Shown piece by piece: positions 23,196-44,482 of a stretch of 64,000 bases of DNA; position 1 is the first letter of the stretch; each line of letters opens with the position of its first letter. Under the pieces are notes generated by a model, which did not search any database, was not told the DNA's origin, and saw only the letters and a program-made list of their open reading frames with translations. The translations under genes were made by a program, and so were the position numbers. Where the stretch lies: assembly GCA_903919125.1 (NCBI GenBank), contig CAIXGS010000038.1:1-64000 (forward strand). The letters run 5' to 3'. The stretch comes from an uncultured Spartobacteria bacterium (GTDB lineage: Bacteria; Verrucomicrobiota; Verrucomicrobiia; Chthoniobacterales; Chthoniobacteraceae).

Positions 23196-24182
23196 TTAAT
23201 CGTTAGATGCGGATTCACCATCCGGATTTTTCACCTTATCCGGATCATCCACAGCAATCGAATAGGCAATCCCCGCACCCAAGAACAGTGCCACAATGCT
23301 CAGGCTAACTACATTCGGAAGATGATAATGAAACGCGCTTCCAATCAGCTTGAAGGACACAAATATTAGCAAAATCATCACGGCCTTTTCGAGCGCCCAT
23401 AACTCATTTTGAGCTGCAATCAGCAGGAAATAGAGACTCCTTAACCCGGCTGCAGCCCATAGGCTAGACGTAATCATGAGATAAGGATCGCGAACCACGG
23501 CCACAATAACGGGCATGGAATCAAAGGCAAAGATTACATCGCAAACCTCGATACAGACCAGACAGAGGAAGAGCGGCGTTACTCCATCAGAAAAGAAGCG
23601 ACCCGAAGTCAGCGATGGGTTGGTTTTTGAAAACTTCCCAACCATTTGCACCGACCAATGATTGGTGTAATCTACTTCTCCCTCTTCCTCGCTGTTCTGC
23701 CACATTTTCCAAACCGTCCACAAAACAATCAGCGCAAAGGCAATCAATACGTATGGGCTTAGATTGACAATCAATGCGCCTGCTCCCAGAAAGAATATTC
23801 GGAAAATAATTGCGCCGAGAATTCCCCAATAGAGGATCCGGTGTTGGTAGTGCTGGTTTTTCTTCAGGGTTAGTCCGAAGGATTTAAAGATCAGAGAAAA
23901 GGCGATTAAATTATCTACAGCCAGTGTCTTTTCGAGCACATAACCAGTGAAGAAGAGGCTCGCGGCATTTGATCCACGCACCCACCAGACAAAGCCACCA
24001 AATAACAACGAACACCCGAGCCAAACAAGGGACCATATAACGGCGTCCCAAAAGGTGATGGCAGAGCCTTTTTTATGACTAGTCAAATCGATAAGAACCG
24101 CGATCAAAAAGGGGATCAGGAAGGCGAAAATCTCCAAGGCGGTGATATTACTAAAAGTAGAAAGAGGTAAATCAGTTGTCAT
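23196..24182 (-). CDS. terC: TerC-family integral membrane protein
   Basis: TerC proteins are polytopic membrane proteins of the Ter system, thought to organise a metal-sensing complex at the membrane or move metal ions. The protein of about 328 residues has around nine hydrophobic segments. It carries the family signatures LEKTLAVDNLIAFSLIF (with the conserved Asp and Asn) and CIEVCDVIFAFDSMPVIV (with the second acidic set). I use the ATG at 24182; another at 24227 is possible. A lipoprotein gene follows. The biosynthetic genes upstream on the same strand end about 410 bases before. Confidence 0.9.
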   Translation of the reverse strand: MTTDLPLSTFSNITALEIFAFLIPFLIAVLIDLTSHKKGSAITFWDAVIWSLVWLGCSLLFGGFVWWVRGSNAASLFFTGYVLEKTLAVDNLIAFSLIFKSFGLTLKKNQHYQHRILYWGILGAIIFRIFFLGAGALIVNLSPYVLIAFALIVLWTVWKMWQNSEEEGEVDYTNHWSVQMVGKFSKTNPSLTSGRFFSDGVTPLFLCLVCIEVCDVIFAFDSMPVIVAVVRDPYLMITSSLWAAAGLRSLYFLLIAAQNELWALEKAVMILLIFVSFKLIGSAFHYHLPNVVSLSIVALFLGAGIAYSIAVDDPDKVKNPDGESASND

Positions 24183-24592
24183 TTTTATGAAAGCGCATGG
24201 GTGTATGACACCTGTATTGGCGGTCATGCAACTTTTTTCTGGAAATTTATCTTGGATAGACAGGTTTGTCAGACGGCTAGGAATTGAGATTCGGGGTTCG
24301 TGTTAATGTCGACTTTTCTGTTCTTCTGGGAGTCGCTAATTTCACAAGGGCCCGTGTGGGTTGATGTCTTGCTTTCACTTTCAAGCCTAACCCGTTGTGA
24401 CCGAACTTATCCACCCCAGCCGCGCCCTCGGAAATCTGCTGCAAGCCGGACTCGCTCTTGCTCGTCCTCCGTTACGCAGCTCCGTGGGAATCAATTTACA
24501 GAAAATTTGTCGCACCTCCGTCTTAGCCGAAGCTTTAGACAAAACAACTCACGCGAATCAGATAAAAAGGAGACAACGGTGGTTCAGTTAAA
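24183..24592. other. 410-bp stretch without a convincing gene
   Basis: A 64-residue + strand frame starting at a GTG (24397-24591) and a longer one from 24300 show no family features, and I do not call them. The stretch probably carries the terC promoter on the - strand. A T- and A-rich part lies at 24225-24260, but no clear boxes are visible. Confidence 0.35.
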
Positions 24593-25483
24593 TCAGCACG
24601 CCCCGCCATTTGCGTGCACAGCCTCACGATAAAGCAACCGCTTCGCCCATTCTGCATGGCAAGCCCGTTCGAGCATATTCCCGTGAAGTCCAAAGACTGC
24701 AGGCGCTTCGGGTTCAAGGATTCGCTGGGCTTCTTCGACGTCCTGCGGGGCGGGACGGTATGCGTTCCAAATGACGGGGACTTGTCGGGGGGTAATGGCT
24801 GTTTTCGCAAACAGTCCGCGATCGACATCTTCGGCCACCTCAAGGGCCAGAGTCGCCAGATCGTCCATGCGGTCAAACACGGGACCGCAGATCGTCACCC
24901 CGTAGGAGCTGAACACCTCCAGCAAGCCGTCGATTACCCGACCGACTGGCGTTTGATAAACCGTGCGCCCAGAGGGACGCCGCAATCCGCCTAACAAAGC
25001 AAACAAGTCGTTTACTCCAATCCGGGCACATGGGATGAGCCCACGATGGGCGGCGCACGCATGAGCCAGCTCCCGGCGGCCACCAGGGTCGAGTGACTCG
25101 CGGCTCTCCAGAATCGGCAGGATGTGATGATTCCCGCCACTTCGCTCAATCCACTCGTGGATGCTCTGCGCGGTCGCCTTGGGTAGGATAAAACCGGCGA
25201 TACGCTCGAGCGGGATGTGGTCGAGCAAATGCGACAGGGCATCCACATTGGCGGGACGAACAAAAATGGCTCTCGGAGCGGTTTCTATCCGGGCCAGAGC
25301 TTCTCCGAGTGCACTCGCAGCAGCCGTCCGATTTTCCCGGCGTACGGCATCCTCTAAACACACGGCGATGCTGCACACGCCGAGATCCTGGCGGCCTTCG
25401 AGTAAGTGATGAATCTCAGGCCGGTCCGCGGGAACGTACAGCAGTGGAGCGAGCAGAGTGAGCTCGGGAAGAGGTGGTAGCAT
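24593..25483 (-). CDS. CitE-like C-C bond lyase of the Ter biosynthetic module
   Basis: The 296-residue TIM-barrel protein belongs to the HpcH/HpaI aldolase-citrate lyase beta group. LLYVPADRPEIHHLLEG opens the barrel, CLEDAVRRENR carries a metal-site Glu/Asp, FVRPANVDAL follows, FILPKATAQSIHEW continues it, and ARIGVNDLFALLGGL lies near residue 165-180. Ter clusters of many bacteria carry a lyase of this kind next to phosphoribosyltransferase-like genes. It is thought to make or cut a C-C bond in a nucleoside-like metabolite; the substrate is unknown. It lies 41 bases after the PRTase-PELOTA gene, clearly in the same operon. Confidence 0.82.
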   Translation of the reverse strand: MLPPLPELTLLAPLLYVPADRPEIHHLLEGRQDLGVCSIAVCLEDAVRRENRTAAASALGEALARIETAPRAIFVRPANVDALSHLLDHIPLERIAGFILPKATAQSIHEWIERSGGNHHILPILESRESLDPGGRRELAHACAAHRGLIPCARIGVNDLFALLGGLRRPSGRTVYQTPVGRVIDGLLEVFSSYGVTICGPVFDRMDDLATLALEVAEDVDRGLFAKTAITPRQVPVIWNAYRPAPQDVEEAQRILEPEAPAVFGLHGNMLERACHAEWAKRLLYREAVHANGGAC

Positions 25484-25524
25484 GAGAAAAACGGGAACGT
25501 GGTCCTGCAGAGGGAAAGTGACGG

Positions 25525-26643
25525 CTAGGGAGCAACGGTGTCGATAACCGCCACGGCGTCGAAGGCGAGATCGTCCTCCGTCTGTACTGGTGTGTTGCGC
25601 AGGGCGGCCAGTCGGCGAATCAAGGCCGCGTCCGTCGGGTTGGCAGTGGAATTGAGCCAGACCACCTGAGGCATCCGGCGCAGAAGGACCCGCACTGTTT
25701 CTCCAATCCCGAGTTTGATCCGGTTCCAGTCCTTCATGTGGTGACGTTCAAGCATGGTATCCAGAAACTCCCGGGTGAGCTCACGTCGCGAAGCCCGCTC
25801 TTCCGAGGTGAGTTGCCCCGAAGTCATCCCCCCGGATTCTCCTTTGTGGTGAGGCACGGCGGCCAGAAGCCCGCGCATATAGCCGACAAACCAGCGGCTC
25901 AGATCGTAACGCCGCAAATGGGGCAGCGGAACGCACCCGTGCATCTGTGCCTCTTCCCCCCTCGGCAAGACACTGCGGGAAACGAGGCCAGAAATCGTGC
26001 CGCCGAGTAACGTGGATGGAATCAGGTAATCCTCAGTGCTTGCTGCAACCCTGGCCGCCCCGCAAACGTCCAATGGCACCCAAAGTCCCGGATTCAGGGT
26101 GGGCGGCGCTTCTTTCCACCCAGCGATGGAACGCTGTAATTCGCCGGCAATCGTGCCCTTTCCCGTCCAGCCATCGACAAAATGCAAGCTGGCGGGATTG
26201 TGGCGGGCCATGATCCAGAGCAGCGCGGCGTAATCCACCCCGCGATCCCGGATGACTGATATTGAATAATGATAAATGCGCAGATACGGTGAAATTTCAC
26301 GCACCCGATGCCAGAGCAGGACTCCGATCGGGGTGCCTGCACGTGCGATGGATACGATGGTGAGCTCGCCCCCGACGGCAGAGGCGGCCAGCGAGGCGGC
26401 GAGCTTTACGATGTCGTGCGCCAGGCGTTGACCGTTGGCGAGAAGAGACTCGCGGAAGAGCCGCAACCGTTCGCGGGTGGGTGCGTCCTCCGGGCCGATC
26501 ATTTCGCTGTAATGGCTCTGCCCGCTCTGGATGAGCCGTTCCCGTTCGGGCAACGAAGTGGGGGCCAGATGCAGCCGCCGCATCAGAAAGCCCACTTCGG
26601 AAGTGCTGGCATAGCTGCCAGGGAAAGGGAGGGTGGCGGGCAT
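25525..26643 (-). CDS. PRTase_1 / PELOTA-domain protein of the Ter module (StiP-like)
   Basis: The 372-residue protein has the arrangement found in ter-linked biosynthetic genes. A phosphoribosyltransferase-like domain contains LTIVSIARAGTPIGVLLWH and the PRPP-loop-like FVDGWTGKG (about residue 160). A C-terminal part (IKLGIGETVRVLLRRMPQVVW, about residues 295-315) matches the PELOTA RNA-binding-like domain. Databases also label this family StiP cysteine protease; no protease evidence is visible to me. Expected role: glycosidic bond formation or cleavage in the nucleoside-like product. It sits between the PRTase-TRSP-HAD gene (117 bases upstream) and the lyase gene. Confidence 0.8.
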   Translation of the reverse strand: MPATLPFPGSYASTSEVGFLMRRLHLAPTSLPERERLIQSGQSHYSEMIGPEDAPTRERLRLFRESLLANGQRLAHDIVKLAASLAASAVGGELTIVSIARAGTPIGVLLWHRVREISPYLRIYHYSISVIRDRGVDYAALLWIMARHNPASLHFVDGWTGKGTIAGELQRSIAGWKEAPPTLNPGLWVPLDVCGAARVAASTEDYLIPSTLLGGTISGLVSRSVLPRGEEAQMHGCVPLPHLRRYDLSRWFVGYMRGLLAAVPHHKGESGGMTSGQLTSEERASRRELTREFLDTMLERHHMKDWNRIKLGIGETVRVLLRRMPQVVWLNSTANPTDAALIRRLAALRNTPVQTEDDLAFDAVAVIDTVAP

Positions 26644-26760
26644 AAATAAATCAGAAGGGTGAAGCTGGATAGGACGGAAGACTTTCTGGAGTTAGCCTGC
26701 TTCGGTGCAACGGCTTCAAAGGACGGGATCTTTTCGCATCATGGACAGTTCTCATTGGCG

Positions 26761-28749
26761 TTACTTTTCCGTCCCGAGCCAGATTCCATCGAGGGTCGAA
26801 CCGCTGGGGATGGCAAGCAGACCGCTCAAGCGCATAAACCCGAGGTCGGTCGGCATATCCCCCAGACAGAGCAGCGGAGCCTGGTGCGCAAAGTATTTCT
26901 CCTGCACAAACAGCGTCGCCTCGCGTTTCCCAAGACCGGTTGGAAGCGCCTGCAACTCAGCACCGAGCACAGCCACCCGGCACCCCATCCACAACTCCTT
27001 GTCTCCCTGAAGCACAACGCCTTCAGGGCCGTTCCACCAACCGGGCGCAGCCTTGGCGACCAGATAAGCCGGCAGTCCGGGTTGACTGTCCACCAGACGT
27101 GGCCGAGCCGCATTTTTTGTGCACTCAATGAGTTTTGCACAGAGCGTTTTTAAGCGGGCCTCCCAGGGCTGCAGGAGTGCCTGTATCCGTGCCTGCCATT
27201 CGGCATCAGGCTCTCCATTCCAGTCGAGCACGATGGCGCCGTTGGCTAGGATGGCCGGACCGCGCATGTGGAGTTGAGAAACGTCCACACGCTCAAAGGA
27301 GTCCGCATCTCGGGCGGTCACGGGTACGATGGTGGCGGAACGACTCAGCGCGAGCAGCAGACGGTGGGTGGCGGCGGGCACCCAGCTTGAGGGTTCTCGC
27401 TGACTCCAGGTCCCGGGAATCGCCGCATGACGTTCGCTTGGAACAAGTCCGGCAATTCCATTCGCCCAATGGCGCGAAAAAACGCTCCCGTCGAGATCGG
27501 TTGCAATCCAGTCCAGCCGATCGGGAGCCGTGCTCGTATTCGACCAAGTACACATCTCGACCCGTGGCAAATGCCACAGAGGATGTTCACTGGGAGGCGA
27601 TGCATCTTCGGTACAAACGATGACCCGATCGTAAGGATGGTCGTCGGGAACGTTGTACAGGTGCTCGGTGTAGCGCTCGCCGGAAAGTGCCGGAAAGCTG
27701 CGACAGTGCTGAATGGCTCCGCCAATCAAAATGGGCGAGCGTGTCGTCGCTTGGACCCAGGCCTGGGCCCCTGCGGCTTCCAGGGCCTCGGCCAGCAGAA
27801 AAGGTTGAAACCCATATTCGCCATTGCCAATGACTAGGACTCGGGACTCGGCGACCCCAGCCCCGGTTTTACCCAGTTCTTTTGGGGCACTTTCAAGGGC
27901 GAGGGCCGGCGGGATCAGCGTAGCCCAATGGCCGGGCAGTACCTCCGGCGACACAGTGCCATGGCGCACCCCGCGCCGGCATTGCACCGTGGTGTCCAGA
28001 GTGGTGTGGGTGTGTGGCGGAACCGGAAAGTCACCGATGGGAGTAAATTCAAACCGCCCTTCGACGAGGCTTTCGATGTGCGCGATAGCCGGATCCAGCC
28101 CCTCGGAAGTGGCGGGATTCCAGTTCAACAACACAGCAAGAGTGGCGGAAAAGGGCCGAAGATCGCCCCTTCTCGCTTTGCGCCAATCCCGAAACTCCCG
28201 AACGAGTTCCGCCGCAGTGCGTCCCGTCGTTGCTTCGTCGTCAACAATGACCATTTGCGAGGCGGACAACAGCCAGCCTTCGGGATCGTCAATGTCTTCA
28301 GGTAAATGCACTGCATGTGCCGTGGCATGGGAGTGCGCCTCGGCGAATCCAAACGCTACTTTGCTGCCGGTACGGCGCCGTGTGCTTTCAATATAAAGCC
28401 CGCGTCCGTCGAGCGCGCCCCATTCGCGGAATACAGCTTGGCCCAGGGTTGTAGCCGTTTCCGCCATACCGATAAAAACCGTGGGTTGATCGGCCAGTCG
28501 GGCCCGCAGCTTTTGAGCGAGTCGGGAGGCGACCGAACACAAATCGGAGGGCCGCGCGGGATAATGGCGTCCAAGGACACGGCTGACGAAAAGGAAGCGG
28601 CGATGGGCGTTGTTGCGCAGCGCAAGATCGCAGATGTCGCGCAGGGGCACGTCTTCGCGGTTGAGTGCAAAGCGAAAGTGCCCGCCGGGAAGGTCGGCGG
28701 TGTACTCGGATGGACCTTTGAATTGCCAGTCGGTAGGGATCTCGGTCAT
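26761..28749 (-). CDS. PRTase-TRSP-HAD fusion of the Ter module
   Basis: The 662-residue protein has three parts. Residues 1-200 hold a phosphoribosyltransferase domain with PRPP motif MVIVDDEATTGRTAAEL (about 163-180). Residues about 280-390 form the TRSP domain that normally follows this PRTase. Residues about 405-660 form a HAD phosphatase, with motif I ATDLDGSVF and the late motif LCLGDMPTDLGFM. In many ter loci PRTase-TRSP and HAD are separate genes, so the fusion supports direct hand-over: form a phosphoribosyl product, then remove phosphate. Its ATG overlaps the ATP-grasp stop by 4 bases. Confidence 0.83.
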   Translation of the reverse strand: MTEIPTDWQFKGPSEYTADLPGGHFRFALNREDVPLRDICDLALRNNAHRRFLFVSRVLGRHYPARPSDLCSVASRLAQKLRARLADQPTVFIGMAETATTLGQAVFREWGALDGRGLYIESTRRRTGSKVAFGFAEAHSHATAHAVHLPEDIDDPEGWLLSASQMVIVDDEATTGRTAAELVREFRDWRKARRGDLRPFSATLAVLLNWNPATSEGLDPAIAHIESLVEGRFEFTPIGDFPVPPHTHTTLDTTVQCRRGVRHGTVSPEVLPGHWATLIPPALALESAPKELGKTGAGVAESRVLVIGNGEYGFQPFLLAEALEAAGAQAWVQATTRSPILIGGAIQHCRSFPALSGERYTEHLYNVPDDHPYDRVIVCTEDASPPSEHPLWHLPRVEMCTWSNTSTAPDRLDWIATDLDGSVFSRHWANGIAGLVPSERHAAIPGTWSQREPSSWVPAATHRLLLALSRSATIVPVTARDADSFERVDVSQLHMRGPAILANGAIVLDWNGEPDAEWQARIQALLQPWEARLKTLCAKLIECTKNAARPRLVDSQPGLPAYLVAKAAPGWWNGPEGVVLQGDKELWMGCRVAVLGAELQALPTGLGKREATLFVQEKYFAHQAPLLCLGDMPTDLGFMRLSGLLAIPSGSTLDGIWLGTEK

Positions 28750-29876
28750 TTGCAGACAGCAGAGGTAAAGCGATTCAGGTAGCTGGGCATAACGAACACC
28801 TCGGAGCGTTCTTGGACCCGTATCGGCAGAGCCGGCTCCGGGATCATCGGCAAAGGCTCGCCGGGCTTGTGGAGCGCAAATTGTACAGCGAGCGAGGGCA
28901 GGTTTAGGCCGGTGAGGCCGATGTAGGGCAGCCCACCAGACATACGGCCGTTAATTTCGAGTAATTGCGGACTCTCCGGCTGAATAGCCCGGGACCGGAA
29001 CTGGACATTGAGCAGGCCATCCAGTTCAAAATGAGACACGAGAAGGCGAACCATCTGTTCCACTTTCGGTGCGGGCGCGAGGGTTTGCGACTGGCCCTCC
29101 TCCACTCGTTCGGTGCGTGACGTACCGGCGATGCTAACCCGGCCATTGTACGGCTTGCGCCGGGAAACGAGGGCGAGCACCCGCCCCCGCTGGGCAAGCA
29201 CATCCACGCTGTATTCGCCTCCATTCAGATATTCCATGACCAGCAATTCCGGGAACTCCCCAGCGGACTCGAGCACTCCGCCCAATTCGGCGGAGGAAAT
29301 GCGGTGTCCCTCACTATTGAGGAGGCGGCGCAGTGGTGTCAGGGAGTCGTCGAGGACATAGAAACCGAGCCCGAACACACTAGTGGACGGCTTAAAACAT
29401 ACACGCAGTCCCTCCGCCAGAAGTGCATCGCGAGCCGCCTCAAACTGGGCCCAGGTGCGCACCCGCAGGAAGCGAGGGACGGTCACTCCGGCGGGGACTT
29501 GTTCGAGAAAGCGCCCTTTGTCTTCGAGCAGACGCATAACGACCCCCGTGCCGGCGACGATGATTTGCGTGCCCCTGCCGGCAAAGTCGACGCGGTGCTC
29601 GGCGATGACCTCGCGCATCCGGCCCGGAATAAAGACGTCGACGCTATGACGTGTGCAAAAATCAAGGCACCAGGCCAAGTACTGCTTCTCGCCCACGCCG
29701 CTGGGTTCGACCTCCACTAGGTCGCATTCCGAGAGCGGTCCGAAGTCGGGTTGAGTGTGGCTTCCAATGAGCGTTAACGAAGGTCCCCAGCCGTCGCGGA
29801 GTTGACGAAAGATCCCGTGAACACTGGAGAAACATTTATTAAACCACACGCGTGCAGCTCGCTGGGTGTTTTCCAT
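28746..29876 (-). CDS. ATP-grasp ligase of the Ter module
   Basis: ATP-grasp enzymes join a carboxylate to an amine or thiol using ATP. The 376-residue protein shows the fold: nucleotide-binding strand LRVCFKPSTSVFGLGFYVL (about residue 155), LLVMEYLNGGEYSVDVLAQ (about 213) and the metal-binding end LNVQFRSRAI...LLEINGRMSGG (about 290-320). It is the first of four co-directional biosynthetic genes and overlaps the next by ATGA. In the comparative picture of ter loci this enzyme adds an amino acid or similar group to the nucleoside-like compound; the actual substrate is not known. Confidence 0.85.
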   Translation of the reverse strand: MENTQRAARVWFNKCFSSVHGIFRQLRDGWGPSLTLIGSHTQPDFGPLSECDLVEVEPSGVGEKQYLAWCLDFCTRHSVDVFIPGRMREVIAEHRVDFAGRGTQIIVAGTGVVMRLLEDKGRFLEQVPAGVTVPRFLRVRTWAQFEAARDALLAEGLRVCFKPSTSVFGLGFYVLDDSLTPLRRLLNSEGHRISSAELGGVLESAGEFPELLVMEYLNGGEYSVDVLAQRGRVLALVSRRKPYNGRVSIAGTSRTERVEEGQSQTLAPAPKVEQMVRLLVSHFELDGLLNVQFRSRAIQPESPQLLEINGRMSGGLPYIGLTGLNLPSLAVQFALHKPGEPLPMIPEPALPIRVQERSEVFVMPSYLNRFTSAVCK

Positions 29877-33391: not shown

Positions 33392-34426
33392 TTAACCAGC
33401 ACTCTGTTCGATTTTGAATCCACTCGTCCGATCGTTGCCGCGTGAGATTATGTTCTTGCAAGCTGGGCAGGTGATTTTGTTGGGCGGATCTGATGACGAG
33501 AGGCAGAAGAGGGCATCGCAGTTTCCACAGCCTGCTGCGGAGTCATTGGCGCAGAAAGGACAGGGAACTATGCCGAGTAGCAGGTTACTATCGACAGCGG
33601 GAAGGCGAAATGACTTGCCACTGCCCGCCGGAATTGACTCAACCGTTAGCGTATGGGCAGCATTGGCTGCGTAATAACCACTCCGTTCGTCGAACAGATA
33701 ACGCATTAGATAGGTGCCGCGTCCGTGTTGGCAATGGACCCTCAGAAAGATTTGCCTTGCGCGCCCGTCGTGCACTGGCGTTTTACTCAGGTCGACCTTC
33801 TTTACTTCGGTTGGTAAGTTCGCGAGCAAAGCATCCGGCGCGCTGTCGCCGACTCCTGTGCTGGCGCTGTGAACGGAGGCGGTGAGCCAGATAAAAAGTT
33901 TCCCGAAACTATCGGTGCTGATGCTGTCCATGCGCAGCACGATGTCTGTTATCTTGCCGAGTTGGAAAAAGTCCACGTCAGCTCCACAACCGATAGCGTA
34001 GAGGTTCGCTGGTCTTGTAAGGGAGCGCGTATCCAACAGCGAGAGCGCACTCTCCCACTCATCAGTCGCTTGCCCGTCTGTGATCAAGAAAATCAGTGGC
34101 CGGTAGTCACCCTTCTCGGTGCTGGTGGTGCGCTTGACCTCCGTACGTATGCTCTCGGCAGCCAGACGAAGGGCGGCTCCGAGTGCCGTACCTGGGCGAA
34201 CTTGCAGTGACGGGGTTTGTACTTCATCGAGTGGTTTTAGAGGCGCAAGCTGTCGGGCATCGCTGTCAAAGGTGATGAAGCTCAACCATACAGTCTCCAA
34301 TGCATGCGGATTGCGGCGCAGCTCTTTGAGCATGGCACCGACAGAGAGGCGGACACCCTCGATACCGGGACCAATCATGGACTCTGAGCAATCGAGCACC
34401 ACATAAACGGGCAGGCGGCGAGACAT
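33392..34426 (-). CDS. terY: TerY-type VWA protein with C-terminal zinc ribbon
   Basis: VWA domains of the TerY type bind metal through a MIDAS motif and act with a kinase and PP2C phosphatase as the TerY-P triad. The 344-residue protein has MIDAS DCSESM (residues about 12-17), GTALGAALRLAAESI, and LIFLITDGQATDEWESAL. The C-terminal 65 residues add a cysteine-rich module (CPFC, CGNC, CPAC) typical of the long TerY variant. It lies 20 bases after the kinase gene, in the same operon as the two shorter VWA genes. Confidence 0.88.
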   Translation of the reverse strand: MSRRLPVYVVLDCSESMIGPGIEGVRLSVGAMLKELRRNPHALETVWLSFITFDSDARQLAPLKPLDEVQTPSLQVRPGTALGAALRLAAESIRTEVKRTTSTEKGDYRPLIFLITDGQATDEWESALSLLDTRSLTRPANLYAIGCGADVDFFQLGKITDIVLRMDSISTDSFGKLFIWLTASVHSASTGVGDSAPDALLANLPTEVKKVDLSKTPVHDGRARQIFLRVHCQHGRGTYLMRYLFDERSGYYAANAAHTLTVESIPAGSGKSFRLPAVDSNLLLGIVPCPFCANDSAAGCGNCDALFCLSSSDPPNKITCPACKNIISRGNDRTSGFKIEQSAG

Positions 34427-34446: not shown

Positions 34447-35949
34447 TTAGGCGTTGATCAATTGCACCCGGGCGAGGCGTCCGCTGTCGGTGCCGTTGAA
34501 CAGCAGCTGCTGGCCATCGGTGAGTTCGATGGCTGAGTTAATGGGGACGTGTACAGCGGGCTGCTTGGTGCAGTCCTTCATGCTGGTAAGACGTTGATTA
34601 GTGAACATCCACTTGCCCTTGAAGAAGGTAAAGTAGCCGACTGGTTTCTTTTGCTCCAAGGTCAGTCTTTCGTTGTTGCCCACGAGTCGATCCGTGTGCC
34701 ACTCAAAAAGGTATTGGTTCGTGTAAACCATGAGCCGGTGGTCATCAGGCTTGAAGCTGCTGCCGCGCTTTGAGTAAAGATCAAGCATAGGCAATTGGCC
34801 ATTGAAACCCGTATTGCAGAAGGGGCAGATAGGCTTTGCAGTATTGGCGAAAACATACCACTTGTGAGTGCATGTGGGGTTGGTGCAGGGTTGTAGTAGG
34901 TCCACGGTGCGGATCAGTGCGTTCTCCCATTCATCAGCGGAAGGCCGCAGGTCAGGCCGATGCAAACCTGCGATAAAGGCGCGGTCAAAGAGCTTCTGCA
35001 AATGTGGACCAGTGATGCTGTAGGGCAGTCGGGTTACGTCTGCGAAAGGAAGCTCACTCTTCTTCACCTCCTTTAGGTTAGGACGATTTCGGGAGTCTCC
35101 AAAGTGCTCCACGAACAATGCTTTGCTGCCCATTTCCAAGTTCATGCGCTCCTCTTCAGTCTGGGCGGGATGCACGAGGCCGCCTTTGAGCGGATGCCGA
35201 TAAAGCAGATACATGTAAATGAGCACGGCTAGCGCGTGGCGGTCCGTCTCGATGCGAGGCAGCGCTCGGCCTTTGTCGGACAAGGCTAGGTGCATGGTGC
35301 TGATAACCTCCGGCGCGATGAAGTCGGGTGTGCCTACCACATCGGGAGGGTATTTGTTGGGAACAACAAGGCTATCGATGTCGATGACCGCAGCATTGCC
35401 AGACAGTGGATCAATCAGCACGTTCTTGTAGGACAAGTCAGAGTGCGCCAACCCAGCGGCATGCAGTCGGCGCACAGCGCGTGAGATGCGTAGACAGACC
35501 TTGAAATAGTCAATCCAAGTGCCGCGCTCCTCGGGGGCAAGATACTTCTGTTGGTTAGTGCCGGTGGAAAACCACTTCCCCTCCTTCTCGTTGCCCTTAA
35601 TACCAAGCATGTCGCCATTAGCAGACCCATACTTGAAGAAAAAGTGCGACGGATAAACGGGCGCCTTGATACCCAGCAAACCATTATATTCAACGATATG
35701 CGTGGGCCAGCAATAAAGGTTCTGCCAGTAATCGCCGCCTTGCTGGTTGAAGATACTCTCGCGATAACGTCCCACGATGTTTTGAAGCCGATCCTTGGCA
35801 TTCGCATCCTGCACCTTGCGGTAGAACGCGACCACATAAGAGCGGTCGGGTGAGAAATACACATCCTTCATCCCTCCCTGCATCGGTGGTCCATCAACAA
35901 ACGCTACAGGTGAGCCGTCCGCAGCCTTCAGGTTAATTATGCCGCTCAT
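34447..35949 (-). CDS. Ser/Thr-type protein kinase of the TerY-P triad with zinc ribbon
   Basis: The 500-residue protein is a protein kinase of the kind found beside TerY. N-lobe features are GGMKDVYFSP and VVAFYRK; the catalytic loop HSDLSYKNVL lies at about residues 169-178, and the metal-binding DID follows in place of DFG. PDFIAPEV and a C-lobe come next. After the kinase comes a cysteine motif (CTNPTCTHKW and CPFCNTGF, about residues 358-382), then a beta-rich tail of about 110 residues. It shares 4 bases with the pseudokinase-PP2C gene upstream. Likely job: phosphorylate Ter components in response to a metal or stress signal sensed by the VWA proteins. Confidence 0.85.
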   Translation of the reverse strand: MSGIINLKAADGSPVAFVDGPPMQGGMKDVYFSPDRSYVVAFYRKVQDANAKDRLQNIVGRYRESIFNQQGGDYWQNLYCWPTHIVEYNGLLGIKAPVYPSHFFFKYGSANGDMLGIKGNEKEGKWFSTGTNQQKYLAPEERGTWIDYFKVCLRISRAVRRLHAAGLAHSDLSYKNVLIDPLSGNAAVIDIDSLVVPNKYPPDVVGTPDFIAPEVISTMHLALSDKGRALPRIETDRHALAVLIYMYLLYRHPLKGGLVHPAQTEEERMNLEMGSKALFVEHFGDSRNRPNLKEVKKSELPFADVTRLPYSITGPHLQKLFDRAFIAGLHRPDLRPSADEWENALIRTVDLLQPCTNPTCTHKWYVFANTAKPICPFCNTGFNGQLPMLDLYSKRGSSFKPDDHRLMVYTNQYLFEWHTDRLVGNNERLTLEQKKPVGYFTFFKGKWMFTNQRLTSMKDCTKQPAVHVPINSAIELTDGQQLLFNGTDSGRLARVQLINA

Positions 35950-37796
35950 GGTTTGGAGGGCTTGGATTCGTGAGGTAACAAGAGCGCGATAGTGCGGTCA
36001 TCGTGGTTGCCTTTGCTGTAGAAGCCTGACCACTGGAGAAGTTCATCGCTGGCCTGCTCGTTGTCAGGAACGAGCCTTACTTGGTTCGAGATATCAATCC
36101 AGAAGGTTTGCCACGTATCCATATCTCCCAAACTGACTTCCGTGGGGAAGAGGGGGTCTGTGATGCCATCGGTCATTAAGACTAGCGCATGAAAGTCTGG
36201 CACCAGAGCCACATGCAGACGCTGGCTGATACCCTCGGCGGTCATCCAAAGATTTTTGGAGGTGAGGAATATCGTCTCACTGGAGAACTCGCCGCTATCC
36301 GGCGTGCTCATCACTTGCACACTTTCATCACGTTTGAGCAGACCAATCCCACCATCACCGATACCGAAGCTGAGGACGATCCAGCCTCGCTCCGTTTGTC
36401 TTGCCGCACTGAGCAGGAGCGTGGTGGCGTATTCCTTTGGCATGCGCGGTGGCTCTTGCGCTGTGGCTTCATCGAAGATGGCCTTGAGCGCTGAGTGGGC
36501 TGCACCGCCGAGCCAAGCATACGCAAGGCTGCGGGCCTGCTCTTCGGTCATCGCGTCGTTCGCGGCCTGCTTCGCAATGTTGGGCTTGCTTGGCTCGTCA
36601 GGCTCCACTCTCAAGTGCTCTTCGAGGTGCTTCAGTGCACTCGTACAAGCCAGTAATGAACCTCGCCGGGAGAGCTTGGCCGAGCCCGCACCATCGGCCA
36701 CAGCGAGCAAATGCCAACCGGTAGCGCCATCATAACCGATGCGAAAATCATCATCGCGAAACAGCGCTTCCTGCGCGTGCGAGCGCCCGCGCACGCTGGC
36801 AGCCACGATGAAGGCGGCAGGCGTCGGCAGGGCAAACTTGTCGGTATCCTCCTTCCAATAGGGGTCGTCTCGGTTGGAGGGGAGGTCCTTCCAAATCGAG
36901 GCGGGGTCCGCATTGATCGTGACTTTGATGCTGCGCTCTAGCCTAGGACGATCTTGCGGACCATCCGTGCGGAAGAGCTGAAAATGAATCGCGTGTTCGC
37001 CATCCACCAGCGGGCTTCCAACTAGGTGCTGCTGCGTATCGTCAAGATACAAACCGAGGTCTTCGAGCTTACGAAAACTCACCTGCCAGTCAGCGCCCCC
37101 ATCAAGAAAAAGGCTGCTCACACGTATCTGACACCTCTTTCCTTTTGTGAGATTTATCGGTAAGCGATCCAGCGTTTTTGGAACTGATGGCTCCGTAGTC
37201 GCCAATCGCTTGGGAGGTGTGGAAGCGTGATTGCTCTGCGGCGTTGATTGCGCTCTCTGTAGTGCTTGGTCGGAGGTGCCACGAAGGAGTGTCTCCAGCT
37301 CAGCAATGCTGGAAGGGCGTTGCGTGGCATCCAACGCCAACGCCAGACAAATCGCGGACTGCTCAGCCTGTGTCACAACTGTTGAAGAGAAACCTAGTTG
37401 CTCGCCGCGCTTCAACCGCACTGCCGACACTACAGGCGGCTGACCATTGAGGGCATGATAAAGTACGGCTGCCAGCGAGTAAATGTCCGCACTCACCGCT
37501 GGCTCGACAGGCGGCTCCACGTCAGCCTCGGGCGGCGAATAGTAAGTGTCGCGAACGAGGCGCTCAGATTTACAGGCTACAAAGTGCGTTAGGTCAACCT
37601 GCTGCGTCTGTTGGCTGACTAACAAGCTTTCTGGCGTGATGCCACCGTGAGCGGAGCCCCCAGCATGGAGCACACGGAGGTGATGGATCACAGGTGCCAA
37701 CATCCCAAACAGGCGCTCACAAGAAAGATGCGGATGATCGCCAGCCCAGCGGTGAAAGGGAGTTTGGTAAATACTTCGGTGATCACGCATAAACAA
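35946..37796 (-). CDS. Pseudokinase-PP2C fusion of the TerY-P triad
   Basis: The 616-residue protein joins three parts. Residues 1-180 look like the C-lobe of a protein kinase (VLHAGGSAHGGITPESLLV, then ADIYSLAAVLYHALNGQPP), but the ATP-binding N-lobe and the catalytic Asp are missing, so it should be inactive. Residues about 215-310 form a beta-rich linker. Residues about 330-600 are a PP2C phosphatase (AVADGAGSAKLSRRGS with the metal-binding Asp, VLMTDGITDPLF, GNHDDRTIALLLP). The usual triad has separate phosphatase and kinase; here a dead kinase lobe may tether the phosphatase. It overlaps the kinase gene by 4 bases. Confidence 0.82.
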   Translation of the reverse strand: MFMRDHRSIYQTPFHRWAGDHPHLSCERLFGMLAPVIHHLRVLHAGGSAHGGITPESLLVSQQTQQVDLTHFVACKSERLVRDTYYSPPEADVEPPVEPAVSADIYSLAAVLYHALNGQPPVVSAVRLKRGEQLGFSSTVVTQAEQSAICLALALDATQRPSSIAELETLLRGTSDQALQRAQSTPQSNHASTPPKRLATTEPSVPKTLDRLPINLTKGKRCQIRVSSLFLDGGADWQVSFRKLEDLGLYLDDTQQHLVGSPLVDGEHAIHFQLFRTDGPQDRPRLERSIKVTINADPASIWKDLPSNRDDPYWKEDTDKFALPTPAAFIVAASVRGRSHAQEALFRDDDFRIGYDGATGWHLLAVADGAGSAKLSRRGSLLACTSALKHLEEHLRVEPDEPSKPNIAKQAANDAMTEEQARSLAYAWLGGAAHSALKAIFDEATAQEPPRMPKEYATTLLLSAARQTERGWIVLSFGIGDGGIGLLKRDESVQVMSTPDSGEFSSETIFLTSKNLWMTAEGISQRLHVALVPDFHALVLMTDGITDPLFPTEVSLGDMDTWQTFWIDISNQVRLVPDNEQASDELLQWSGFYSKGNHDDRTIALLLPHESKPSKP

Positions 37797-37810: not shown

Positions 37811-38446
37811 TTAAAAGACGAGATTAATGTCAGTTGGTGGTGGTGGCAGCCCCAGCGGCGCCCCTAGGCCCGCACTTTGATTGCCGTTGGACACAGCGGT
37901 AGAGACCCATTGGAAGAAGCTGGTGAAGGCGTGGCCATCCATGGTGTCAAGCGTGACAACATGCTGGCAGAGCTTGCGTAACTCATCGGGCTTGCTCTTT
38001 GGCCCTGCGGCGCAGCCGACGATCGTACCAAATCTGCGGCGTTGAACCTCGGGTATCATGCTATTGAAAAGTGCTACATCAGAGGCTGCACCATCGGTCA
38101 TCACGAAGAGCAAAGGACGCCAGTCTCCGCGATGGTCTGGCGTCGAACGCTCCACGTCTCGATCAACAAGTTGGCAGACCCGCTCTAAAGCGAGGCCCGT
38201 CATCGTGGGACCAGACTGCGGTGTGTTGATTTCAGGGATCACGAACTCCTCCAGTGAAGTGAGCGGGACAACGTCCTTCACCTCGCGATCAAAAGTCAGC
38301 AAGCAAATATGCACCGTCTCCAGCGCATAAGGATCTTTTCGCAGTGAAGCCAGCAAAGAGGAAAGTCCGACCTTAACCGCTTCAATCGGTTCCCCCTTCA
38401 TGGAGCCCGACGTATCGAGCAAGAGATAAACTGGGAGGCGACGCAT
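37811..38446 (-). CDS. terY: Short TerY-type VWA protein
   Basis: The 211-residue protein is a bare VWA domain with MIDAS LLDTSGSMKGEPIEAV (residues about 8-23), VCQLVDRDVERSTPDHRGDW, and LLFVMTDGAASDVALFN. It ends in a Gly/Pro-rich tail (GAPLGLPPPPTDI). It closely resembles the next gene, which also has 211 residues, so the pair arose by duplication. It lies 14 bases before the pseudokinase-PP2C gene. These proteins are thought to dock metal-bound TerD-type proteins or the kinase. Confidence 0.88.
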   Translation of the reverse strand: MRRLPVYLLLDTSGSMKGEPIEAVKVGLSSLLASLRKDPYALETVHICLLTFDREVKDVVPLTSLEEFVIPEINTPQSGPTMTGLALERVCQLVDRDVERSTPDHRGDWRPLLFVMTDGAASDVALFNSMIPEVQRRRFGTIVGCAAGPKSKPDELRKLCQHVVTLDTMDGHAFTSFFQWVSTAVSNGNQSAGLGAPLGLPPPPTDINLVF

Positions 38447-38468: not shown

Positions 38469-39104
38469 TTAGGTCACGACTTGGATCTCGGGCGGCGGCG
38501 GCGGCAGCTCGCTTAGCCCCTGCACCTCTTTGCCACCCTGATCCACAGACTTACTGCTTTGACTAACTGACGAGCTGATCCATTTGAAGAAGGCTTTGAT
38601 CGAGTTGCTGTCGGACGTGTTGAGATGCACGACGATTTCACTTATCTGCTTCAACACGTTCTCATCGCCTCCATCAACCGAGCAACAAACCACAATACCC
38701 CACTTCTCTTGCTTGAAGCGAGCGAGCCCTGACTGCCATCCACCGTCCGGCGCGCCATCTGTCAGTAGGAACACCATCGGCTTCCAGTCGCCCTTGGTCG
38801 TTGGGGTCGTCTTAGTAAGTTCTTTCGCTGCGCGATCAGCTACCAGCTTGAGCCCATCACCAAGGTTGGTGCTACCTGAGATGCTGAGATTGGGTGGTTG
38901 GAACGCAGTGAGTTCGGTAAGCGGCACAACTACATCAGCCGAACTGCCAAACGTGAGGACGCTTAACCATGCCGTTTCCAGCGCGTAAGGGTCTTGGCGC
39001 AAAGCGGCAACAAGCATTTGAATACCATTCTTGACCTGCTCTATAGGTTCGCCCGACATAGAGCCGGAGACATCGACAAGGAGATAAACGGGTAGACGTC
39101 GCAT
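38469..39104 (-). CDS. terY: Short TerY-type VWA protein, paralogue
   Basis: The 211-residue protein has MIDAS LVDVSGSMSGEPIEQV, FGSSADVVVPLTELTAF, and MVFLLTDGAPDGGWQSGL. Its C-terminal tail (LSELPPPPPEIQVV) matches the proline-rich end of its neighbour. An 8-bp tandem repeat touches the start codon (39105-39133), so the leader of this gene is made of repeated stop codons and AT-rich units. It is 22 bases upstream of the other short VWA gene and heads the VWA-kinase block. Confidence 0.88.
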   Translation of the reverse strand: MRRLPVYLLVDVSGSMSGEPIEQVKNGIQMLVAALRQDPYALETAWLSVLTFGSSADVVVPLTELTAFQPPNLSISGSTNLGDGLKLVADRAAKELTKTTPTTKGDWKPMVFLLTDGAPDGGWQSGLARFKQEKWGIVVCCSVDGGDENVLKQISEIVVHLNTSDSNSIKAFFKWISSSVSQSSKSVDQGGKEVQGLSELPPPPPEIQVVT

Positions 39105-39139: not shown

Positions 39140-39778
39140 TCAATTGGGAAGGTATTCTTTCAATAGATGAACAAAGCTGTCGTAGGGGTAAGCATCGCCA
39201 ATAGCGCGGAATCTCCAACATTGCCCGTGGCGAGACACTTCGCCAAACAACATGGTGCATTGGCCTTCATAAGCTGCCGCTGAGCTGAGCGAATAGCGGA
39301 CAATCTCTTGGCCTCGGCCATCGACGGCACGAATGTAGGCGGAGCCTATTTGGCCGAAATGTTGTCCATGTTTAATCCCCTGATAAATGCTTACTAGGAA
39401 GAGAATGCGATTATACTCCATGGGTACAGAATTCAATCGCACCACGATCTGCTCATCATCCCGCTCGCCTGTGCCGCCCGTGCGGTTGTCGCCGCTATGG
39501 GTCACGGTGCCGCTGGGGTGCACTCGACTGTTAAAAAATACCACATCGCCACCCACGAGTTTGGCGTCACCTCTATTTCTGACCTTGTTATCCTTGTCTA
39601 GGAGAAACGCGATGGCATCTAGGTCGAACTCCGCTTCATCGCCCTGAGTGGAAACGGTCGCTACAGCCCCTATCCTTTTTTCTTTCACCGTCCAACCGAG
39701 GCCAATGGTGATCTGATCAAGATCATGAGCATCCTTGGAGAAATCAACGGCTTGTCCTTTGGTAAGATTAATTGGCAT
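39140..39778 (-). CDS. TerD-family protein
   Basis: The 212-residue TerD-type protein has the family start PINLTKGQAVDFSKDAHDL and a calcium-site set (EAEFDLDAIAFLLDKD, then GDNRTGGTGERDDEQIVV). It then has RILFLVSIYQGIKHGQHFG and ends near FVHLLKEYLP. It is slightly longer than canonical TerD (about 191 residues), with an insert after residue 30. It is the last of five TerD-type genes transcribed in the - direction. A 217-base spacer to the preceding one holds no gene. Confidence 0.87.
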   Translation of the reverse strand: MPINLTKGQAVDFSKDAHDLDQITIGLGWTVKEKRIGAVATVSTQGDEAEFDLDAIAFLLDKDNKVRNRGDAKLVGGDVVFFNSRVHPSGTVTHSGDNRTGGTGERDDEQIVVRLNSVPMEYNRILFLVSIYQGIKHGQHFGQIGSAYIRAVDGRGQEIVRYSLSSAAAYEGQCTMLFGEVSRHGQCWRFRAIGDAYPYDSFVHLLKEYLPN

Positions 39779-39995: not shown

Positions 39996-40568
39996 TCATG
40001 CGGTGTAGGCCCTCGCGTATTTCTCTACAAGGCTCTCGAGTCCCCCGTCAGAAGAGACTCCGAGCGCCTCAAACCTCCAAGCTCCGTTGCGCTTGTAGAG
40101 ACGACCGAACTCGAGTGCGGTCTCTGTCGAAAAGTCCTCGTCCAATTCATACTTGCACAACTCTTCCCCTGTTAGCGCGTTGTATATGCGAATGAACGAG
40201 TTGCGCACCTGCCCAAAATTTTGATTCCGCACCTCAGCCTCGTAGATGCTCACCGTGAAAATGATTTGTTCGACGCGAGGGTCCAACCTAGAAAGATCAA
40301 CCTCAAGAGTCTCATCATCACCGTCTGAGTTCCCTCCAGTACGGTCGTCTCCAGAGGACTTCACAGCTCCATCCGGCGACTCCTGATTGCCGTAAAACAC
40401 GAAGAAACCTTCGGCGGGGACTTGATTGTCCGACCCAATTAAAAATGCAGAAGCATCAAGGTCGTAATCGTGACTTGATGCCTTACTATTCGGATCCCAG
40501 CCCAGACCGACACCGAATTTACTAATACCAATATCAACGCGCTGACCCTTAGTGAGGTTGATTGCCAT
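39996..40568 (-). CDS. terE: TerD/TerE-like protein
   Basis: The 190-residue protein starts at ATG 40568 (AINLTKGQRVDIGISKFG); an ATG 30 bases further up would only add a non-conserved leader. It has the canonical length and motifs of TerD/TerE: HDYDLDASAFLIGSDN, SGDDRTGGNSDGDDETLEV with the calcium-binding Asp residues, and [26 protein letters not shown]. TerD and TerE cannot be told apart by eye. It closely resembles the protein at 42135-42692. Confidence 0.9.
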   Translation of the reverse strand: MAINLTKGQRVDIGISKFGVGLGWDPNSKASSHDYDLDASAFLIGSDNQVPAEGFFVFYGNQESPDGAVKSSGDDRTGGNSDGDDETLEVDLSRLDPRVEQIIFTVSIYEAEVRNQNFGQVRNSFIRIYNALTGEELCKYELDEDFSTETALEFGRLYKRNGAWRFEALGVSSDGGLESLVEKYARAYTA

Positions 40569-40718
40569 ATAATAAGTATGCTGCCAGATACCCTTCAATT
40601 TAAGGTATCAAAAAAATTCAGAACGCTGTTGGAACTTAGACCGCTGTCCCATAATCCACCAGAGAGGTTCCACCCAAATTCAATCACACAAACTAGGCGA
40701 GACCTCGGCTAACAAAAG

Positions 40719-41408
40719 CTAAGCATGGGCATATTGAGAGATGATGCGAGAAACCGTCTGCGCCACGAAACCATCCTCCGTGGCGTCGCCAATGGCAGCA
40801 AACTTCCACTCCCCGTCTTTGCGATAAAGGCGGCCCATGATGAGGGCGCGGCGATTCCTATAGCTCGACTCTGCCGCAACATTATAAGAAGCAAAGACCT
40901 CCTTAACATGAGTGGGAGTGCCTTCGAACATGCGTATCTTCGCGTAGGGAATCTGGGAGAAATCCTGCTGGCCGCAGTTATTTAGGAAAAAGAAAATTTG
41001 TGCGACGTCAGGGGGAACGGCGGAAAGATTAACGGTGATGATTTCATTATCCAACCCATCATCTCCACCCGAGTCGCCAGTAAGGTCATCACCGGAGTGC
41101 TTCAGAGCGCCCCCTGCAGCCTCAAGTTTCCCCGGTGGCAAACCAAACTTTGCTAAAAGCTCCGCCCTATAGAGAGGTGAGTAGATTTGGTCATAAAGCT
41201 CCCCACGCTGATTGAGAAGAACGGCGCTGAGGTCCAAGTCGACATCCTCCACCACCGTTTCAATTTTTCTACCGAAGCCTAGGAACCCACTGGACTCAAC
41301 TCGCGACTCAATACCTCCCCAATTGACCCCGACGCAGAAACTTGACAGCGCTGCTCCCGATGCCTTTCTAAGATCAATTCGTTGTCCTTTTGTAAGATTG
41401 ATGGCCAT
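40719..41408 (-). CDS. TerZ/TerX-like TerD-family protein with insert
   Basis: The 229-residue protein starts AINLTKGQRIDLRKASGAAL and has FCVGVNWGGIES as in TerZ. An insert of about 35 residues (LGFGRKIETVVEDVDLDLSAV to LLAKFGLPPGKLEAA) separates the beta-strands before the metal site SGDDLTGDSGGDDGLDNEI. It ends IGDATEDGFVAQTVSRIISQY. The start and general pattern are nearest to TerZ/TerX forms. It lies between the terE-like and terZ-like genes, all in one direction. Confidence 0.86.
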   Translation of the reverse strand: MAINLTKGQRIDLRKASGAALSSFCVGVNWGGIESRVESSGFLGFGRKIETVVEDVDLDLSAVLLNQRGELYDQIYSPLYRAELLAKFGLPPGKLEAAGGALKHSGDDLTGDSGGDDGLDNEIITVNLSAVPPDVAQIFFFLNNCGQQDFSQIPYAKIRMFEGTPTHVKEVFASYNVAAESSYRNRRALIMGRLYRKDGEWKFAAIGDATEDGFVAQTVSRIISQYAHA

Positions 41409-41498: not shown

Positions 41499-42092
41499 CT
41501 AGAGAAACTTAGCTTTGATGGTTGCAATCGCATCCTTATAGGTCCGGTCCCTAGTGGGCGTTCCTACGGCGTTAAATTTCCACTCGCCATTGTGCTTATA
41601 AAACAAGCCCAGCACCATAACAACATGACCTGCAAATGACGGTTCTTTACCTATTGCGTAGTTGGCAATGACGTTAGATACCCTTTCACTCGTTCCTTCG
41701 TAAATTCGAACCGCTGCATGTGGAATTGCAGCAAAATCTTGACCTCTAAAACTCGTCAAGAAGACTGCGATCTTTTCGACATTGCTTTGCAGTTTCGATA
41801 AATCAACCGTCACGATTTCATTATCTAAACCATCATCTCCTCCTTCATCACCGACGCGGTCATCACCAGAATGCTGCATCGCGCCAGTACATGACTCCCA
41901 CAGCTCACCCCAGCCAATAATTTCAACGGTATTCTTGTTCGCATCAAATGTCGCTACATACAGATCCAAGTCGACAGAATCACCATTGGGCATGACCCCC
42001 CAGTTGGCGCCTGCGCAAAATTTAGTCACGGCAGAGCCATTCTCTTTCTTTAAATTAATTTTTTGGCCCTTGATTAGATTTATTGTTGCCAT
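41499..42092 (-). CDS. terZ: TerZ-like TerD-family protein
   Basis: The 197-residue protein has TerZ hallmarks: KGQKINLKKENGSAVTKF, CAGANWGVMPNGDSVDLDLY, SGDDRVGDEGGDDGLDNEI for calcium binding, and VAVFLTSFRGQDFAAIPHA. Start ATG 42092. It follows terD at 42 bases. The presence of both TerZ- and TerD-type proteins in one run mirrors the terZABCDE order of plasmid-borne tellurite resistance, though the order here is rearranged. Confidence 0.87.
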   Translation of the reverse strand: MATINLIKGQKINLKKENGSAVTKFCAGANWGVMPNGDSVDLDLYVATFDANKNTVEIIGWGELWESCTGAMQHSGDDRVGDEGGDDGLDNEIVTVDLSKLQSNVEKIAVFLTSFRGQDFAAIPHAAVRIYEGTSERVSNVIANYAIGKEPSFAGHVVMVLGLFYKHNGEWKFNAVGTPTRDRTYKDAIATIKAKFL

Positions 42093-42134: not shown

Positions 42135-42692
42135 CTAAGAATACTTATCCACAAATTTTTGGAGCCCACCAGCGAAACCACTACCAATAGCTTTGAATTT
42201 CCATCCGCCGTCTTTTCTGTAGAGTTCGCCGAATTCCACCGCTGTTTCCGTCGAGAAATCTTCCCCAAGGTCGTACTTTACGATTTCCTCATTTGTTGAT
42301 GGATCATAAATACGAACGAAGGCATTCCTGACCTGCCCGAAATTCTGCTTCCGCGACTCAGCTTCGTGAATAGTAACGACTAACGTTATTTTTTCACAAC
42401 CAGCAGGCAATTTCGACAAATCCACCTTAATGCTTTCGTCATCACCATCGCCAGCGCCAGTTAAGTTATCACCCGTATGCTCTACGCAGCCTTCCGGACT
42501 CATGAGATTATTGTAAAATACAAAATGCTTATCCGAAATAACCTTTCCGGTTGAGCCCAGCATGAACGCTGATGCGTCGAGATCAAACCCCTGCCCTGAG
42601 TCAGTTTCATTTGTGTCCCATCCCATTCCGACGACAAATTTTTGCAGAGATCCGATGGATGCGTTTCCACCTTTTGTTAGATTAATTGCCAT
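42135..42692 (-). CDS. terD: TerD-like calcium-binding stress protein
   Basis: The 185-residue protein has full TerD length and motifs: [54 protein letters not shown], and [25 protein letters not shown]. It is the first of five consecutive TerD-type genes and so probably nearest the promoter. The leader (42693-42730) is very AT-rich, with no clear Shine-Dalgarno sequence. About 115 bases upstream lies the gene of the three-repeat Cys/His protein. Confidence 0.91.
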
Positions 42693-42807: not shown

Positions 42808-43080
42808 TCAGACAGTGCCGACCCCGTGTATGTGCATTTTGGTTGGGCTATAGCTGCAATGACTACCAGGGCTGGACGTGCTACCACAGAAACTGCACTT
42901 TCCTGGCTGAAGCACGACATGCGTTTTCGTTGGGCTGTAGCTGCAATGACTGCCGGCGCTAGACGAACTGCCGCAGTAACTGCACCGCCCAACCTGAGGC
43001 GACACATGCGTTTTGATTGGGCTGTTACTGCAATGGCTACCCGGGCTAGATGAACTGCCGCAATATATGCAATTAGACAT
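42808..43080 (-). CDS. Three-repeat Cys/His mini-protein, likely zinc-binding
   Basis: The 90-residue protein is built from three nearly identical units of about 29 residues: CIYCGSSSSPGSHCSNSPIK, CSYCGSSSSAGSHCSYSPTK and CSFCGSTSSPGSHCSYSPTK, each ending in a His. The pattern C-x2-CGS-(S/T)-SS-x-GSHC-S-x-SP-x-K-x-H offers three Cys and two His per unit, enough to hold one zinc ion each. The repetition shows at DNA level too. I know no named family with certainty. It lies upstream of terD on the same strand, so it may belong to the Ter group. Confidence 0.75.
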   Translation of the reverse strand: MSNCIYCGSSSSPGSHCSNSPIKTHVSPQVGRCSYCGSSSSAGSHCSYSPTKTHVVLQPGKCSFCGSTSSPGSHCSYSPTKMHIHGVGTV

Positions 43081-43699: not shown

Positions 43700-44482
43700 T
43701 TAGTTCCTCCCGTGGGTTTGAGTATCCGCATCGAATAAGCCGTACAAGGCTTCTCCCCGTCGACAAGCGGTGTGTGGATTTACTCGCTTGTGGACCTCCG
43801 TAACTGCGTTGAACAGACTCCATGCAGTTCGTGGCAGGAACTCAGGGTGACTCGGCCTTCGCCATTCATTCATGACTTCAGGCACTTGCTTCGTAGTGAT
43901 CGCTCCGGCGTCCAGTGCTCTTATTACGATGCCGTGCGCACGCTTGTCGTCGATCCTCATCTCGTTGTAAGTGAGGATTTCTTCGTCCAGCTTTTGGAGT
44001 CTGCCACCCAGTTGCCCCTCAGCCCTTGCCGTAAGGTGACGCAAATCGCGTTCAGCAAAGCGGGTGTGCTTTCGTGCGATTTGCACCTCACCGCTGAACG
44101 CCAAGTTGTCACAGCAGAATATTTTAGTCCCTGCCACAAGCCCCTCTGGGAACGTCCTATCGGGGCTGTTCCGTATTCCTACGGCCCAAGTCCATTCACA
44201 GATGCCTCGTGCTGGCAACGTGATGTTTAACACACCGAAGTAGCGTTGACCATCATGACTCAGAGCATGAGCTTCCTCGGTGACGATGAATCCGTAGCTG
44301 TCGAGTTGATCGTGGACTTCACCAAGCACCCGACTGTGTGGGAAGGGGTACCATGTGCCGGTGTTTCTTGGCGTGAGTACGTTCCACATTTGACTCCGAT
44401 TGACTAACTCTGCGCCGCAGTGAAGCAGCATTCCTTTGGGTGGCTTTTTGGCAACCACGGGCCCTTCCTCTATCATGTTCAT
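43700..44482 (-). CDS. DUF932 phage/plasmid-like protein
   Basis: The 260-residue protein shows the DUF932 pattern common on phages, plasmids and integrative elements: YPFPHSRVLGEVHDQLDSYG, RYFGVLNITLP, GLVAGTKIFCCDNLAFSGE and ARKHTRFAERDLRHLTARA. The molecular function is unknown. It overlaps nothing upstream, but a hairpin lies before it (44506-44538). It marks the right part of the Ter island as mobile-element DNA rather than part of the stress system. Confidence 0.8.
   Translation of the reverse strand: MNMIEEGPVVAKKPPKGMLLHCGAELVNRSQMWNVLTPRNTGTWYPFPHSRVLGEVHDQLDSYGFIVTEEAHALSHDGQRYFGVLNITLPARGICEWTWAVGIRNSPDRTFPEGLVAGTKIFCCDNLAFSGEVQIARKHTRFAERDLRHLTARAEGQLGGRLQKLDEEILTYNEMRIDDKRAHGIVIRALDAGAITTKQVPEVMNEWRRPSHPEFLPRTAWSLFNAVTEVHKRVNPHTACRRGEALYGLFDADTQTHGRN

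Follow-up and report, generated by a model that had tools for sequence, protein, structure and literature searches.

A divergent member of an unnamed, probable zinc-bead protein family heads a Ter operon in a Spartobacteria genome

Ter stress-response systems, as presented in the available part of a published summary (PMC7824862), bring together TerC, TerD, TerY and TerY_C proteins with a kinase, a PP2C phosphatase and biosynthetic genes. All of these are likewise present in the window analysed here, a 64,000-nucleotide stretch of contig CAIXGS010000038.1 from an uncultured Spartobacteria bacterium. The operon that carries the TerD genes begins with a gene for a 90-residue protein made of three similar Cys/His units. 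The same part of the summary makes no mention of such a protein, and most members of its family lie outside ter loci. In Haloferax volcanii, the C(P)xCG zinc-finger proteins described in the available portions of two reports (PMC11241148, PMC6562870) are likewise very small and carry CxxCG knuckles, and most of them bind zinc. We propose that the three-unit protein is a divergent member of an unnamed, probable zinc-bead family from which at least two ter operons, and other systems as well, have probably recruited copies.

The original prediction, made from the window alone, described three Cys/His units of about 29 residues each in a protein encoded immediately before terD. Its coordinates proved exact, the strand (which it did not give) is minus, and the gene that follows on this strand after 115 bp is indeed a terD, with its start at 42692. 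The gene and its units are as follows:

42808..43080, minus strand: three-unit Cys/His protein, 90 residues, MSNCIYCGSSSSPGSHCSNSPIKTHVSPQVGRCSYCGSSSSAGSHCSYSPTKTHVVLQPGKCSFCGSTSSPGSHCSYSPTKMHIHGVGTV; stop codon at 42808-42810
42985..43071, minus strand: unit 1, residues 4-32, CIYCGSSSSPGSHCSNSPIKTH plus linker
42898..42984, minus strand: unit 2, residues 33-61, CSYCGSSSSAGSHCSYSPTKTH plus linker
42811..42897, minus strand: unit 3, residues 62-90, CSFCGSTSSPGSHCSYSPTKMHIH plus tail

The units begin at Cys4, Cys33 and Cys62, giving a period of 29 residues, and the whole protein contains nine Cys and several His residues. A profile of relatives (alignment A1, seven sequences that include the window protein) recovers the protein from its own genome with an expectation value (E) of 3.5e-29 and no stops. 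Furthermore, the units differ mostly at third codon positions (3/4/9, 6/7/16 and 6/5/13 differences at positions 1/2/3 for the three unit pairs). These two results indicate that the frame is a real gene rather than a chance one. The DNA identity between units is 63-79%, with 6-8 of 26 codons synonymously changed in each pair, and the duplication is therefore not recent; a recent triplication is ruled out by this codon divergence. Thus, the claim that the units show little drift holds for the protein but not for the DNA. Of the two causes proposed for it, recent duplication or strong constraint, the latter fits better because amino acids match and codons do not. Promoters and terminators scanned for upstream of the gene were found at chance level.

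We defined the family (alignments A1 and A4) as proteins with three units of 28-30 residues, each containing C-x2-C, a third Cys and a His in the pattern CxxC[GN]S...C..SP...H. The window protein falls within this definition, and the ligand columns are all invariant in A4. By alignment with its relatives it is an aberrant, divergent member: each unit has an extra residue and GSHC instead of the canonical GxGC spacing (common in the family, not universal), and units 1 and 2 have HVS/HVV where HxH is common. The same genome encodes two paralogues, at C14:7880-8128 and C5:42078-42326 (E 2e-40), both away from TerD. Within the phylum the family is present in 16 of 387 genomes, and within the order in 9 of 213; one Treponema metagenome-assembled genome and viral contigs carry it as well. 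The Treponema hit was the only result of a genome-collection scan that used exact 8-residue stretches of the divergent window copy as query, so the spread beyond the phylum is under-sampled.

No model in Pfam, NCBIfam, PHROGs or PADLOC reached cut-off for the family, and membership in a known family of these four libraries was rejected on this basis. Genes of the family consequently go unnamed. Searches of plasmid and phage records by tblastn with the window protein, a canonical paralogue and (for phages) the phage form described below returned nothing, although the low-complexity filter may hide such Ser/Gly-rich queries. Hydrophobic, signal-peptide-like N termini in five members (L039, L041, L042, L043 and L048) suggest that exported versions exist. 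The long open frames around L023 and L039 were considered as fusions but interpreted as overlapping frames ahead of an internal Met.

Evidence for a metal site comes from the ligand positions of 109 units, in which the three Cys residues were fixed by the search definition and the fourth position was left free. That position is occupied by His in 106 units and by Cys in two, and is missing in one. Both Cys cases belong to a single member (L104 in genome G191, near 9800-10131), whose units 1 and 2 read SPTKYC. A His/Cys exchange at a fixed position fits a zinc site, which allows such a swap, and disulfide pairing within one unit cannot use all of its Cys residues because there are three. Between CxxC and the third Cys the loop can be one residue longer or shorter, as in a flexible ligand loop, and such a change usually affects every unit of a protein together. 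Each unit likely binds a metal ion, presumably zinc, through its three Cys residues and the fourth His or Cys.

A second property of the family is that the units of one protein resemble each other at positions where different proteins diverge. In 21 non-redundant three-unit proteins, the residue that follows the third Cys is identical in 76% of unit pairs from one protein, compared with 12% between proteins. With two further proteins included, 17 of 23 have a single residue there throughout their units, and 54 of 69 unit pairs match (20,000 permutations: mean 10.8, maximum 26). When one protein per close group is retained, 42 of 57 pairs match versus a permutation mean of 10.3 and a maximum of 26. 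Neighbouring loop positions exhibit the same matching more weakly. The codons are nearly unmatched: third-base identity at fourfold-degenerate sites is 0.40 between units versus 0.34 expected, and in L038 one shared Leu is coded TTG, CTC and CTT across the units. Moreover, unit-specific residues and linkers are common to different proteins, and the triple layout is therefore old.

We tentatively favour a reading of the window protein as a small trivalent zinc-bead adaptor. Each 29-residue unit would fold round one zinc whose ligands are C-x2-C, the third Cys and the SPxKxH His, and short linkers would join the three similar beads. The same signature round the third Cys on each bead would allow the protein to bind three molecules of the same partner, or a single target at three of its repeats, simultaneously. 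In addition to zinc, the bead fold and trivalent binding, we infer that the partner in the window operon is a Ter protein; candidates include any of the five TerD proteins, a TerY and the kinase/phosphatase pair. The design itself would be a general one, with a partner that differs by locus. This adaptor and the rival explanations below overlap, and our confidences in them need not sum to one.

Several observations weigh against the adaptor. AlphaFold2, supplied with nine sequences, modelled the window protein with a mean predicted local distance difference test score (pLDDT) of 69; Foldseek found no PDB match to this model better than E 1.9, and the protein has no significant match in Pfam or the PDB. 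The title of the Haloferax survey states that the majority of small CxxCG proteins bind zinc and that several do not (PMC11241148). The window protein also forms the longest branch of the family tree (1.29), making inferences from the family less sure for this copy. With regard to the matched units, the symmetry position was chosen by eye before testing and the one quoted is the strongest. Finally, some codons are common to units 1 and 2 in L024-L026, and these, together with the slight excess in codon identity, leave room for gene conversion.

The matched units allow two readings: either selection favours three equal faces, or gene conversion has acted now and then and silent changes have accumulated afterwards. 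If repeated conversion among tandem repeats were the whole cause, the matching would be uninformative on function. We regard this as doubtful. The shared codons just described would follow from it, as would length changes that affect all three units together (one residue more in the window units, one fewer in L031/L032); however, codon identity is near expectation, as the Leu codons of L038 illustrate, and the same genes have kept their unit-specific residues and linkers. It also seems rather unlikely, at present, that the family consists of trivalent zinc-bead adaptors whose three recognition faces are kept identical by selection in each protein but change between proteins, with ter, radical-SAM, kinase and phage systems each carrying their own matched copy.

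The three-unit gene is the first gene of a minus-strand operon with the order TerD (five genes), TerY (two genes), PP2C, kinase, TerY. This operon and the adjoining Ter genes are:

42135..42692, minus strand: TerD domain protein, next gene downstream after a 115-bp gap (Pfam PF02342, E 3e-77)
41499..42092, minus strand: TerD domain protein (Pfam scan)
40719..41408, minus strand: TerD domain protein (Pfam scan)
39996..40598, minus strand: TerD domain protein (Pfam scan)
39140..39778, minus strand: TerD domain protein (Pfam scan)
38469..39104, minus strand: TerY-like vWA protein (Pfam VWA)
37811..38446, minus strand: TerY-like vWA protein (Pfam VWA)
35946..37796, minus strand: PP2C phosphatase with a kinase-like N-terminal stretch (Pfam PP2C_2, E 7e-38)
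34450..35949, minus strand: protein kinase (Pfam Pkinase, E 1.6e-9)
33395..34426, minus strand: vWA plus TerY-C metal-binding domain (Pfam VWA and TerY_C)
24596..29876, minus strand: Ter biosynthetic module of ATPgrasp_Ter, PRTase_2-TRSP, StiP-PELOTA and C-C bond lyase
23199..24227, minus strand: TerC membrane protein (Pfam TerC, E 2.6e-38)

The region from 20952 to 43080 is a full Ter island headed by the three-unit protein. At its far end, a sixth, weak TerD-like gene lies on the plus strand (20952-21551, E 2e-7). Upstream of the operon is a DUF932-like gene (43700-44482; E 8e-4, below cut-off), and genes of this kind are frequent on mobile elements. In PADLOC, the PP2C/kinase gene alone had matches, to kinase-containing models; the three-unit protein, four TerD genes and one TerY-like gene were also scanned, without a match.

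A second ter operon with a family member is found in genome G056 (L068), from another family of the order. Its order is TerC-TerD-TerD-X-TerD-TerY-TerY-PP2C, where X is the three-unit gene, set between two TerD genes with 11-bp gaps on each side, and the operon holds a homologue of the window's PP2C gene. In the family tree, where support is low, the window copy stands apart from the G056 copy. An operon of the same type in G011 has no trace of the gene in the approximately 170 bp between its first TerD and the contig end. Elsewhere, a TerD gene that is close to the window's third TerD (L110, G004:C129:5828-6433) stands alone and contains an in-frame TGA; it is possibly a remnant of the window operon type.

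The original prediction proposed a metal or tellurite sink or sensor. Such a part of the Ter system would soak up zinc or a thiophilic ion, or report it to TerD or TerY. The richness of the protein in Cys and His, its place at the head of one ter operon and inside another, and the presence in the window operon of TerY_C, itself named as a metal-binding domain, would all suit such a function. Among the 213 genomes of the order, TerD is present in six and the family in nine, with three in common (3 of 9 carriers versus 6 of 213 overall; p 0.001, relatedness uncorrected, two of the three being one genus). However, TerD in any form occurs in 3 of the 22 carrier genomes tested and is absent from the other 19, and the phylum sample has a single genome with both TerD and the family, the window's own (p 0.23). 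A profile search places members next to terD in the window and in G056, and the other loci examined lie elsewhere; in the other TerD genomes examined the family is not near TerD, and the one TerD locus detected in viral contigs has no three-unit protein nearby. This scatter without a ter link is largely the outcome that the prediction itself named as speaking against it, and a family restricted to ter is ruled out because most carriers lack TerD. In addition, two paralogues in the window's own genome are away from ter, the regular layout of one site per unit looks structural, and the signal-peptide-like starts of some members indicate that the compartment varies. The association with ter thus stands for these two operons, whereas a ter-specific sink or sensor appears unlikely.

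The operon also contains enzymes that could act on the protein. Were its Ser-rich loops and SP motifs phosphorylated, the protein would be a substrate or regulator of the kinase and phosphatase. A kinase and PP2C are encoded in the window operon, the PP2C homologue recurs in G056, and a Kinase-PolyVal gene lies 5 bp downstream of a family member in two loci of the same genus (L063 and L065). Against this, no kinase was present among the neighbours scanned at other loci and the Ser residues vary among relatives, and we judge such a role very improbable.

The remaining contexts are diverse. In G157, G171 and G249, members adjoin radical-SAM/SPASM genes, an amidohydrolase gene and genes for short Cys-containing peptides with a KPKxxAKSEPKQ-type start. 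This radical-SAM type is present in 15 genomes, of which four also have the family, adjacent to it in three (co-occurrence p 0.002, uncorrected). The same combination, with short peptides starting like MAYKKPKIIAKSEPKQTYVAGCP, is present at L077:6717-10300, L078:9210-11683 and L093:4078-8837; no NCBIfam model matched these peptides, and the loci look like a peptide-modification cluster outside the NCBIfam models. Twelve viral contigs, in two of which the gene is truncated by the contig end, encode a two-unit form with a fused C-terminal stretch of about 120 residues. This stretch is predicted to be helical by a weak model (pLDDT 58) and had no PHROGs match when tested on L053. The phage form (L051-L062, around 5001-5540) keeps its position downstream of a gene that matches NAD-synthetase and homing-endonuclease models, and its neighbours match UvsY-like, helicase, SbcD-like and late sigma families. 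Such varied contexts, from radical-SAM clusters and a kinase operon to a phage fusion with a predicted helical domain, argue for a general module.

Some of these neighbours raise the possibility that three equal knuckles bind nucleic acid, for example RNA or single-stranded DNA. Besides the UvsY-like, helicase and SbcD-like genes around the phage form, helicases adjoin two same-genus members and L050 comes after a D5-type primase. In sequence and fold searches, the window protein came closest to zinc fingers and Lin28, at E 0.14 and 1.9. These matches are not significant, though, and the ter and radical-SAM contexts do not suggest such a role, which we consider improbable.

If the matched faces of the favoured adaptor do each bind a copy of the same partner, the family would represent a naturally occurring set of trivalent binders, and the copies linked to ter would offer an entry point to the assembly of TerD paralogues.

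Comparison with described metal-binding modules helps to place the protein. Unlike the Haloferax volcanii proteins, compared here by description only, the window units have one CxxC[GN] knuckle followed by a Cys and a His, and the three units are matched. TerY_C (PF15616) provides a metal-binding module within the same operon (33395-34426), but this model gave no match to the three-unit protein even with E allowed up to 1. Metallothioneins have clustered thiols, with Cys at high density and polynuclear sites; the window protein instead has regular units with one set of three Cys and one His each, and no Pfam match. CCHC zinc knuckles of the Lin28 type likewise bind one zinc per short unit and occur as tandem units, which is the arrangement that we infer for zinc here. 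Unlike these knuckles, whose matches to the window protein are among the best but not significant, the window units have the ligand order C-C-C-H and longer spacing.
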